Assembly: GCF_900109885.1 (NCBI RefSeq)
Contig: NZ_FOBS01000008.1
Coordinates: 62,001-126,000, forward strand
Direction: 5' to 3'
DNA: 64,000 bases
Origin: Syntrophus gentianae
GTDB taxonomy: Bacteria > Desulfobacterota > Syntrophia > Syntrophales > Syntrophaceae
The notes below the pieces were generated by a model, which did no database searches, had not been told where the DNA came from, and was given only the letters and a program-made list of their open reading frames with translations. Positions within the stretch are counted from its first letter, which is position 1; every line of letters starts with the position of its first letter. Below, piece after piece: positions 59,708 through 63,542 of the stretch. The translations under genes were made by a program, and so were the position numbers.

Positions 59708-60826
59708 TCAGCTTTTAAACAGCTTCTGCAAGGGAACATATTCCAATGAGTGGGCCTCACCGACGGGACGACTGGTGAGATGTCCCGTCAGCGTATTCAC
59801 ACCCCGGAAAAGGGATGTATCCCGTTTTATAACCTCCAGAAGATCTGACTTGGCGATTTTCATGGCGTAGGGAAGGGTCACATTGTTCAAGGCATAGGTG
59901 GAGGTCCGGGGAACGGCGCCGGGCATGTTCGTCACGCAATAATGGATGACCTCATGGAGGCGATAAACGGGATCGCTGTGTTTTGTCGGTCTCGCCGTTT
60001 CCACGCAACCACCCTGGTCTATCGCGACATCCACGATGACGCTCCCCGGTTTCATGGAGGCCACCATCTCCCGGCTGACAAGTTTCGGCGCTTTGGCGCC
60101 AGGGATCAGGACACTCCCTACCACGCCATCGGCGTGTTTGACGGAATCGGCAATATTCTGGAAATTGGAGCCAAGCGTCGTTAAATTTCCGTGAAGCACC
60201 TCATCCAGATAACGGAGGCGATCCGCATTGGTATCGATGATGGTGACATGAGCCCCCATTCCCAGAGCCATTTTTGCCGCATTGCTCCCCACAATCCCCC
60301 CACCGAGAATGACCACATCCGCCGGACGGACACCGGGCACTCCTCCCAGAAGCTTTCCCCTTCCCCCGTTTTCTTTTTCCAGATAGTGGGCAATGACCTG
60401 AATGGACATTCGGCCGGCCACCTCCGACATGGGCATCAGCAGGGGCAGCACACCACTGTCAAGCTGAACCGTTTCGTAGGCAATCGCGGTTGTTCCAGCC
60501 TCCAGAAGCACCTTTGTCAGCTCCGGCTCAGCGGCAAGGTGTAGATAAGTAAAAAGAATCATATCCTTCCGAAGATAAGCATATTCAACAGGCTGTGGTT
60601 CCTTAACTTTCATAATCATCGCCGAACCTTCCCATACGGCTGCCGCTTCCGGTAAAAGGATGGCTCCCGATGAACGGTATTCCTGATCCGCGAATCCACT
60701 CCCCTCCCCCGCACCGCACTGCACGAGCACTTCGGCACCTTCCCGGACAAGCATTTCGACACTTCCAGGCGTCAAGGCAACGCGATACTCGTTATCTTTG
60801 ATTTCTTTCGGAACGCCTATCTTCAT
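59708..60826 (-). CDS. ald: alanine dehydrogenase
   Basis: A 372-residue NAD-dependent enzyme interconverting L-alanine and pyruvate plus ammonia. It has MKIGVPKEIKDNEYRVAL at the start, K73-type catalytic Lys in MIMKVKEP, the Rossmann motif VILGGGIVGSNAAKMA and the segment containing MPGAVPRTST. GGGAGGGG precedes the ATG. It could link carbon and nitrogen flow in a fermentative or syntrophic metabolism. Confidence 0.95.
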   Translation of the reverse strand: MKIGVPKEIKDNEYRVALTPGSVEMLVREGAEVLVQCGAGEGSGFADQEYRSSGAILLPEAAAVWEGSAMIMKVKEPQPVEYAYLRKDMILFTYLHLAAEPELTKVLLEAGTTAIAYETVQLDSGVLPLLMPMSEVAGRMSIQVIAHYLEKENGGRGKLLGGVPGVRPADVVILGGGIVGSNAAKMALGMGAHVTIIDTNADRLRYLDEVLHGNLTTLGSNFQNIADSVKHADGVVGSVLIPGAKAPKLVSREMVASMKPGSVIVDVAIDQGGCVETARPTKHSDPVYRLHEVIHYCVTNMPGAVPRTSTYALNNVTLPYAMKIAKSDLLEVIKRDTSLFRGVNTLTGHLTSRPVGEAHSLEYVPLQKLFKS

Positions 60827-60982
60827 GGCCCCTCCCTTTCTGCTAATACTATGAAAACATGAAGCATATTTCTTAACATATCTTAACTTGACGATATTTC
60901 TTCCCTATTATTAATTAACCAAAAAGGTAAAACATTTTGACAGTAAAAAATGTATTCAACAAGAGGTAAAAAGGATTTTTTT

Positions 60983-61795
60983 ATGAAAAAGCATGCAATA
61001 TTATTTTTAATTCTGGTCGTTCTGTTCATAGCTGTACCGTCTTTCGCATCCGTTACCAATTATTTCGGATATACGACTTATGGCGGGACATGGTCCGATG
61101 CGGACAAGACATACAGCAATTCCGATGATGACTACATGTGCTGGGCTGCAGCCGCTTCAAATATCCTTTCCTGGGCAGGATGGAGTACATCGTTGTACTC
61201 CAGCGCCGATTCGATCTTCGCCGCTTTCCAGGAATACTGGACTGACCAGGGTGGACTGATGAGTTATGGATGGGATTGGTGGTTTACGGGCGCCACACCT
61301 TCCTATGGGACAAGTGCATCCTATGTCTACGTTTCCGGTGGAGGGGGCTATTACAAATCCTTATTCGAATCTCTATCTCTGAATTTCGCAGATTACTACC
61401 ATGAAGAAACGAATGCGGGCAGCATGATGTCTGCTATTGCCACATATCTGACCTCAGGATATGGCACGACCATCGGTATCTACAAAGCGATCGGGAATTC
61501 CATTACCGGACATGCCCTTACCGTCTGGGGATATGCTTATGATGGAAATGAATACACTGGAATCTGGGTGACCGATTCGGATGATTACGGGTCATCTGAC
61601 AGTCTGACCTATTATGACGTCGAATATAAAAATGGGAAATGGTATTTAGAGGGTTATAACGGATATTATATCGGCGTTGTTGAAGCCCTCGATCGCAACA
61701 CGAGCTCATCAGCGGTTCCCATTCCTGCCGCAATTTGGCTGTTCAGCTCAGGGCTCCTCGGGCTGATCGGCTTTAGAAAAAAGATTGCGCACTAA
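60983..61795 (+). CDS. secreted IdeS-like cysteine protease with VPxPA-CTERM-type anchor
   Basis: A 270-residue exported protein. Signal peptide about 1-22 (ending SFAS). The catalytic Cys is C53 in YMCWAAAASNIL, the His is H177 in GHALTVWGYAYDG, and the Asp is in VTDSDDY (D198/D200); this Cys-His-Asp order and the surrounding sequence resemble the IdeS/Mac (C66-like) family of papain-fold proteases. The C-terminus VPIPAAIWLFSSGLLGLIGF followed by RKK (residues 245-267) is a PEP-CTERM-class sorting signal, cut by an exosortase. The mature part is Gly/Ser/Tyr/Trp-rich. AAGGA precedes the ATG. The exosortase gene is not in the window. Confidence 0.85.
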   Translation: MKKHAILFLILVVLFIAVPSFASVTNYFGYTTYGGTWSDADKTYSNSDDDYMCWAAAASNILSWAGWSTSLYSSADSIFAAFQEYWTDQGGLMSYGWDWWFTGATPSYGTSASYVYVSGGGGYYKSLFESLSLNFADYYHEETNAGSMMSAIATYLTSGYGTTIGIYKAIGNSITGHALTVWGYAYDGNEYTGIWVTDSDDYGSSDSLTYYDVEYKNGKWYLEGYNGYYIGVVEALDRNTSSSAVPIPAAIWLFSSGLLGLIGFRKKIAH

Positions 61796-61799
61796 TCGA

Positions 61800-61847
61800 T
61801 TTCGAGGTCACAAGTATTTTTTTCGCCGGATGCTTGTGACCTCGAAA
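61800..61847. terminator. perfect 15-base hairpin after the protease gene
   Basis: TTTCGAGGTCACAAG (61800-61814) and CTTGTGACCTCGAAA (61833-61847) pair perfectly. A T-run lies in the loop rather than after the stem, so it is terminator-like but not classical. Confidence 0.5.
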
Positions 61848-61950: not shown

Positions 61951-62166
61951 GTGAAGCTGAAAGACACGGACAAGCTGGAATTTGTGGATCAAACCCTTAC
62001 CGTCAACGGCAAACCCTTTGTCGTCCAATACCCCGATGAGCCACTGTTCGGCGCTGAAGAGGGCAAGCTGATCACCATCGTCTTCAAAGGTTGCGGATAC
62101 ACGCAGTACCAATGGGACCCTGAAGAAATTGAGGGGTACTTCCCGGATTCCGAATCACCCTCTTAA
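61951..62166 (+). CDS. small hypothetical protein
   Basis: A 71-residue protein beginning at a GTG with AGGAG seven bases upstream. It is acidic, with KLEFVDQTLTVNGKPFVVQY and a C-terminal acidic tail (DPEEIEGYFPDSESPS). I see no family. It ends 14 bases before the convergent radA stop. An upstream in-frame ATG at 61897 would add 18 residues but lacks a ribosome binding site. Confidence 0.55.
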   Translation: MKLKDTDKLEFVDQTLTVNGKPFVVQYPDEPLFGAEEGKLITIVFKGCGYTQYQWDPEEIEGYFPDSESPS

Positions 62167-62180
62167 AATCAAAGCCGCCT

Positions 62181-63542
62181 TTAAAAGAGATTTTCCAGAA
62201 GTTCTCCCAGATTTCCGACCCGGCAGAGCTCCATCCCGGAAGAATCGGAAATCTCCTGAGAGAGGGCGCGGGGAAGAATGCAGCGGGTAAATCCCATTCG
62301 CGTCGCTTCCCGAATCCGCAGAAGCATTTGTGCAATCCCCCGCACTTCTCCTGTCAATCCCACTTCTCCGAAGACCACCGTTCCCGGAAAAATCGGCCGG
62401 TTCAGAAAACTGGATGCCATCGCCGCCACAATCCCCAGGTCCACGGCCGGTTCGTCCACCCGGATACCGCCGGCCACATTGAGAAAGATGTCGTGAGAGC
62501 CGAGATGTAATCCGCAGATGCGATCCAGGACGGCCACCAGCAGGGACACCCGGTTGGAATCGACGCCGATGCTGGTTCTTCTCGGCATCCCCAAGGTGGA
62601 AGGGCTGACCAGTGCCTGGATCTCTACAAGGATCGGACGGGTGCCTTCCATGCTCGGAACGACCGCAGATCCCGACGCGGAATCAGGCCGATCGGAAAGG
62701 AAAAATGCCGACGGATTCCCCACTTCCGTCAAACCGGAATCTCTCATTTCGAAGACCCCGATCTCATTGCTCGGTCCGAACCGATTCTTTATCCCGCGGA
62801 CAATCCGATAGGCATGACCGGAATCTCCTTCAAAATAGAGGACGGTATCGACCATGTGCTCCAGGACTTTGGGGCCGGCTATGGCGCCGTCCTTGGTGAC
62901 ATGGCCGACGAGAAAGATGGAGATCCCCGTCTTCTTCGCAAAAAGGATCAATCGGCCGGCCGTCTCTCTGACCTGCCCGACGCTCCCCGGCGCAGATCCG
63001 AGGCTCGATGAATAGACCGTCTGAACGGAATCAATTACTGCGACATCCGGACTGACTTTCTGTAAATGCTGAAGTATGTTATCCAGGGCTGTTTCTACCA
63101 GAATCAGCAAGTTCTTCGATCCGGCCCCGATCCGCAGGCCCCGCAGCTTGATCTGCCGTGCTGATTCCTCTCCGGACACATAGAGGACATTTCGACCTTG
63201 TTCCGCAAGCTTCTGCAGCATCTGCAAGAGCAGGGTCGACTTGCCTATGCCGGGATCGCCGCCGACGAGAATGGCGGAACCTTCGACAATCCCGCCGCCC
63301 AGAACCCGATCCAGTTCAAGCACCTTCGTTTCGATTCGTTCCTTTTCATCAGCCTCGATGGCATCGATGGACAGGGGAATTTCATTGCTCTGCAGGGCTG
63401 CATAACGGGAATCGCCCGGCAATCCGCTGGCCTCTTCCTCAATGAAGGCGTTCCACTCATTGCAGGCCGGACATTTTCCCATCCACTTCGGCGATTCATA
63501 CCCACAGTTGCGGCAAAAAAAACTTGTCTTGCTCTTCTTCAA
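62181..63542 (-). CDS. radA: DNA repair ATPase RadA (Sms)
   Basis: A 453-residue protein. The N-terminal zinc finger is FCRNCGYESPKWMGKCPACNEW-like with four Cys (C10, C13, C26, C29 by approximate count). Walker A is GGDPGIGKST near residue 93, the RadA-specific KNRFG motif is near residue 252, and a Lon-like C-terminal domain follows (SLLVAVLDRICGLHLG). RadA drives branch migration in recombination. The start is a TTG with AAGGAG immediately upstream; no better ATG is seen in the region. Confidence 0.94.
   Translation of the reverse strand: MKKSKTSFFCRNCGYESPKWMGKCPACNEWNAFIEEEASGLPGDSRYAALQSNEIPLSIDAIEADEKERIETKVLELDRVLGGGIVEGSAILVGGDPGIGKSTLLLQMLQKLAEQGRNVLYVSGEESARQIKLRGLRIGAGSKNLLILVETALDNILQHLQKVSPDVAVIDSVQTVYSSSLGSAPGSVGQVRETAGRLILFAKKTGISIFLVGHVTKDGAIAGPKVLEHMVDTVLYFEGDSGHAYRIVRGIKNRFGPSNEIGVFEMRDSGLTEVGNPSAFFLSDRPDSASGSAVVPSMEGTRPILVEIQALVSPSTLGMPRRTSIGVDSNRVSLLVAVLDRICGLHLGSHDIFLNVAGGIRVDEPAVDLGIVAAMASSFLNRPIFPGTVVFGEVGLTGEVRGIAQMLLRIREATRMGFTRCILPRALSQEISDSSGMELCRVGNLGELLENLF

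Follow-up and report, generated by a model that had tools for sequence, protein, structure and literature searches.

A C66/Mac-1-type cysteine protease with a predicted exosortase sorting signal in Syntrophus gentianae

The 64-kb stretch of DNA analysed here (the window), from the free-living anaerobe Syntrophus gentianae, contains a gene for a cysteine protease of the type known from streptococcal IdeS. By its sequence, its residues and its predicted fold, the protein belongs to the C66/Mac-1 group. It also presents a signal peptide and a C-terminal exosortase sorting signal. We consider it probable that the protein is an exosortase-processed endopeptidase of the cell surface or matrix, and that it cuts an extracellular protein other than an antibody.

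The protease gene, its residues and its predicted fold

The open reading frame is intact and occupies positions 60983-61795 (+), where a previous sequence-only reading had placed it. It encodes 270 amino acids. An alternative in-frame ATG exists at 60950. We judge it the less likely start, since with the ATG at 60983 the signal peptide begins with MKK, as in most other tailed proteins of this genome. The N-terminus, MKKHAILFLILVVLFIAVPSFA, is a typical signal peptide (residues 1-22; 60983-61048, +), with cleavage presumably after SFA. Its hydropathy agrees with the signal peptide already proposed: Kyte-Doolittle averages over 15-residue windows, with start residues 1-13, lie between 1.4 and 3.0.

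The gene has a GC content of 47%, compared with 54-56% in two neighbouring genes. Directly after its stop codon lies an inverted repeat (61800-61847), a possible terminator with 18-nt arms and a 12-nt loop. The repeat is near-perfect and present as a single copy in the genome. Its T-run is in the loop, not after the stem. Rfam and tRNA scans of the 64-kb window gave no matches, and the result of a promoter scan was at chance level.

The residues expected for catalysis are all present. C53 (61139-61141, +), within MCWAAAASNIL, is the predicted nucleophile; H177 (61511-61513, +), within GHALTVWG, is the predicted base. The segment D198-S199-D200 (61574-61582, +), within VTDSDD, corresponds to IdeS Asp284/Asp286. 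The sequence-only reading had claimed a Cys-His-Asp set in the IdeS order. The alignment bears this out, with C53, H177 and D198 falling on IdeS Cys94, His262 and the Asp of VTDSD. It adds K42 (61106-61108, +), absent from that reading, which aligns with IdeS Lys84. In the IdeS structures discussed previously, Lys84 contacts the catalytic cysteine (PMC11833123).

We examined the conservation of these residues in the family. We searched 155 genomes of the class and detected relatives in six more genomes. The alignment of these class relatives then retrieved 75 loci in species-representative genomes, several of them in the same genomes again. The resulting alignment has 60 sequences. In it, C53, W54, A55, H177, W182 and D198 are invariant, and D39, K42, D49 and N60 are conserved in at least 90% of the sequences.

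Comparisons with known proteins point to the same group. Using phmmer against PDB sequences, IdeS comes first (2au1, 5.9e-6), and the alignment covers the Cys segment as well as the His/Asp segment. Every PDB entry matched by the profile of the 60-member family is of C66 type; the matches are IdeS (6.6e-27), S. canis IdeC and Treponema denticola T-Mac. Against the Pfam Mac-1 model (PF09028), the single protein scores 18.6 bits, where the gathering cut-off of 20.3 bits is a detection threshold. Relatives exceed this cut-off with 45.5 and 76.9 bits, and 39 of the 60 match the model at E 0.01 or better.

The AlphaFold2 model, made from the 60-row alignment, has a pLDDT of 88.4 and a pTM of 0.82. 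Foldseek returned 11 matches under 0.001, all of them IdeS/Mac-1, IdeC or T-Mac. With VIA-align, the model superposes on T-Mac with Z 20.0 (rmsd 3.1 over 211 residues) and on IdeS 1y08 with Z 19.6 (rmsd 3.0 over 203 residues). Other papain-fold proteins (staphopain, papains) reach a Z of 12.9 at most. So, profile search and structure prediction agree with the IdeS-like core proposed from the letters: the model shows a papain-like fold with IdeS and T-Mac as its nearest neighbours.

The sorting signal and the exosortase

The C-terminus of the protein is VPIPAAIWLFSSGLLGLIGFRKK and ends in VPIPAAIWLFSSGLLGLIGFRKKIAH. Residues 245-270 (61715-61792, +) form a module of VPIPAA, a helix and RKK. It is identified by its pattern, by the tailed proteins of the whole genome and by a helix at residues 250-262 in the model. 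The window has 466 stop-ended frames with 60 or more amino acids, and VPIPAAIWLFSSGLLGLIGFRKK is the only match in them to a strict sorting-signal pattern. The curated models for such tails are short, and their cut-offs are detection thresholds; the protein scores 15.5 bits against 25.35 with the VPLPA-CTERM model (TIGR03370), and 12.3 bits against 20.7 with the PEP-CTERM model (PF07589). Since the single protein remains below both cut-offs, the tail is best labelled as VPxPA/VPLPA type, not as classical PEP. Of the earlier claim of a PEP-CTERM-class signal, then, the module stands, and the classical label is less apt.

The search for further proteins of this kind found 24 in the genome with the same C-terminal module. 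Nearly all of them have signal peptides, and they are otherwise unrelated to the protease. The motif variant of the protease tail is common to this set. When the 25 tailed genes were compared by eye for a common promoter motif, most of them showed an AAGGAGG-like ribosome-binding stretch; it is not directly before the protease gene.

Exosortases act on proteins with sorting tails of this kind. The genome encodes one exosortase (PF09721, 1.6e-68), an enzyme whose presence the sequence-only reading had left to be searched for. This protein of 525 aa carries a fused EpsI-like domain at its C-terminus and is best described as XrtD-like (TIGR04152, 397.9 bits against a cut-off of 400). Its locus (L119:9076-17908, on G000:C9) contains genes for glycosyltransferases, a PrsT-like TPR protein, polysaccharide export, chain length and a tyrosine autokinase. 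Because the exosortase adjoins these exopolysaccharide (EPS) genes, sorting is probably coupled to exopolysaccharide. Such a coupling has been proposed for the PEP-CTERM system (PMC1569441).

We compared tail and exosortase in 50 genomes reached through the family loci. Tailed or untailed status was assigned by pattern, and by eye for L032, whose clear tail the pattern did not catch. An exosortase is present in 20 of the 21 genomes with a PEP-type tailed member and in 11 of the 29 with an untailed one (Fisher p 2.7e-5, which is optimistic, as the genomes are related and not independent samples). Five Syntrophales assemblies (G018, G020, G086, G091 and G111), two of them more than 90% complete, have a tailed relative and no detected exosortase. 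When these five are added together with G000 and G109, the association becomes weaker (22/28 against 11/29, p 0.003, optimistic for the same reason). We therefore rejected, as too strong, a rule by which every genome with the tail would also have an exosortase. The relatives in these five assemblies (L013, L011, L016, L015 and L014, respectively) end in PEP-CTERM-like tails; missing contigs or another sorting enzyme could account for the lack of a detected exosortase.

Distribution of the family and history of the locus

The family extends over Desulfobacterota, Planctomycetota, Omnitrophota, Verrucomicrobiota, gut Bacteroidota and Bacillota, and its surface modules are lineage-specific. Relatives were found with the alignment-based scan; scans of genome contigs and viral contigs with the single protein, and tblastn on plasmids, gave none. 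Members are common in non-host genomes, such as those assembled from sediments and digesters. They are also present in animal-gut bacteria (Akkermansia, Alistipes, Phocaeicola), so the family is not purely environmental.

Relatives in other lineages carry dockerin, PKD, SdrD_B, P-domain, FG-GAP, Big_1 and fimbrillin-like extracellular modules. In planctomycetes (L018-L021, L033, L034, L036, L039), members are within proteins of 700 to more than 4000 amino acids; among the planctomycete proteins scanned, one has P-domain and SdrD_B modules. The gut Bacteroidota members (L066, L074, L078, L080-L083, L086-L088) are long proteins with a C-terminal Mac-1-type domain, and several are apparently lipoproteins. 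L051, L065 (Akkermansia glycaniphila) and other Akkermansia and Opitutales loci present PEP-CTERM tails, and the genomes tested have an exosortase. It means that exosortase-tailed C66-type proteases exist in animal-gut bacteria too. One member with PKD domains (L031) comes from a metagenome-assembled genome titled Bathyarchaeota, which could be a binning error.

In the tree, a mostly gut-derived Bacteroidota/Verrucomicrobiota group is set apart. The window protein groups loosely with deltaproteobacterial, Omnitrophota and Auribacterota members; support for this placement is weak, so we make no claim of transfer.

The protease gene lies between an alanine dehydrogenase-like gene (ald; 59708-60826, -) and a small conserved ORF (61951-62166, +), which is followed by a radA-like gene (62181-63542, -). 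The functions of ald and radA are assigned from sequence inspection only. Two sister species keep the order ald, small ORF, radA. Their protease slot is empty: ald and the small ORF lie about 180 bp apart. The gene is thus accessory, gained here or lost there. Phylum-wide, 6 of 395 genomes contain a family member.

Proposed function and comparison with known systems

We infer the processing by the genome's own exosortase, the activity, the location and the substrate class from the evidence above. The Sec system would export a papain-fold cysteine endopeptidase. The XrtD-like exosortase would then recognise the C-terminal VPxPA signal and cleave at VPIPA, and the protease would either be displayed on the surface of the cell or pass into the exopolysaccharide layer. 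In that place it may cut protein of the matrix, of neighbouring cells or scavenged, through a Cys-His-Asp mechanism helped by K42. The conserved catalytic set, together with the varied extracellular modules in other lineages, suggests surface proteolysis as a common theme of the family. An antibody is an unlikely substrate in the habitat of this bacterium. The precedent is T-Mac, a surface-displayed C66-like protease that cuts complement factors and not IgG (PMC11833123). So, IgG cleavage is not implied by the fold, and by analogy a target other than antibody is plausible.

The protease could instead serve its own cell, as a processing enzyme of the EPS/exosortase system that trims or matures other VPxPA-tailed surface proteins. 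The sorting route it has in common with 24 such proteins fits this, and the high specificity of IdeS-type enzymes would suit a single partner protein (PMC9759587). However, the sister species lack the protease, though one of them (G001) keeps the exosortase, and most exosortase-bearing genomes of the class do without it. The gene is on a different contig, not near the EPS locus. We give this role a small probability. Slightly less likely is an enzyme of antagonism or defence, acting at the surface on proteins of competitors, predators or phages. A sporadic accessory spread (6/395 phylum genomes) and the empty site in the sister species are consistent with changing selection; nevertheless, no immunity, mobility or defence gene is apparent nearby, and the flanks are of housekeeping type.

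Papain-like folds also include amidase-, transglutaminase- or ligase-like enzymes. A non-peptidase use of this kind, or a catalytically dead binding protein, might agree with the Trp that follows the catalytic Cys in every relative, in the place of Gly in IdeS. Yet the full IdeS catalytic set is kept, including the Lys, and both sequence and fold comparisons put only proteases at the top. We regard this reading as very improbable, the least probable of those considered. A surface or matrix endopeptidase is the function we prefer. The sequence-only reading was correct in what it observed, and its interpretation is a reasonable one.

IdeS, a textbook enzyme of immune evasion, has been approved as a drug. 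Similar genes in many environmental and gut bacteria indicate that this kind of protease is not solely for immune evasion. Tentatively, and with somewhat less than even probability, the IdeS-type immunoglobulin proteases could be a host-adapted offshoot of an old and widespread surface-protease family, whose environmental members are exosortase-sorted and have extracellular proteins of microbes as their substrates. An environmental branch that combines the IdeS catalytic set with a tail for exosortase would demonstrate that the fold has uses beyond immunity and would supply relatives with new specificities. The exosortase field would gain a substrate with a predicted enzyme activity that can be assayed.

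Compared with IdeS/Mac-1 of Streptococcus pyogenes (MEROPS C66; PDB 1y08, 2au1, 8a47), the protein is alike in its predicted fold, the Cys-His-Asp order, the Lys ahead of the Cys, the VTDSD motif and secretion. On the other hand, identity is about 22% over aligned residues, and in the profile alignment the stretch from the Cys helix to the following one is shorter than in IdeS by about 37 residues. Trp follows the Cys where IdeS has Gly, an exosortase tail is present, and no animal host is apparent. T-Mac (TDE0362/C0362; PDB 9mdm, 9mdk, 9arc) is the closest structure by VIA-align, tied with IdeS. Unlike the window protein, it has two Big domains and an Ig-like N-120 domain and is thought to be lipid-anchored; it has Asn/Glu where IdeS has Asp (PMC11833123).

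The protein resembles the substrates of VPLPA-CTERM/XrtD-type exosortases in its signal peptide, in its C-terminal module of VPxPA, helix and basic residues, and in the exosortase located in an EPS locus. As of 2006, a match to a Pfam family existed for less than 10% of PEP-CTERM proteins (PMC1569441). In contrast to most of them, the window protein has an identifiable enzyme domain. Within the literature searched, of partial coverage, no C66 protease bearing an exosortase (PEP-CTERM) signal came up. The protein is thus a member of a known protease group in a combination for which no report was found, and the family is wider than its streptococcal fame suggests.
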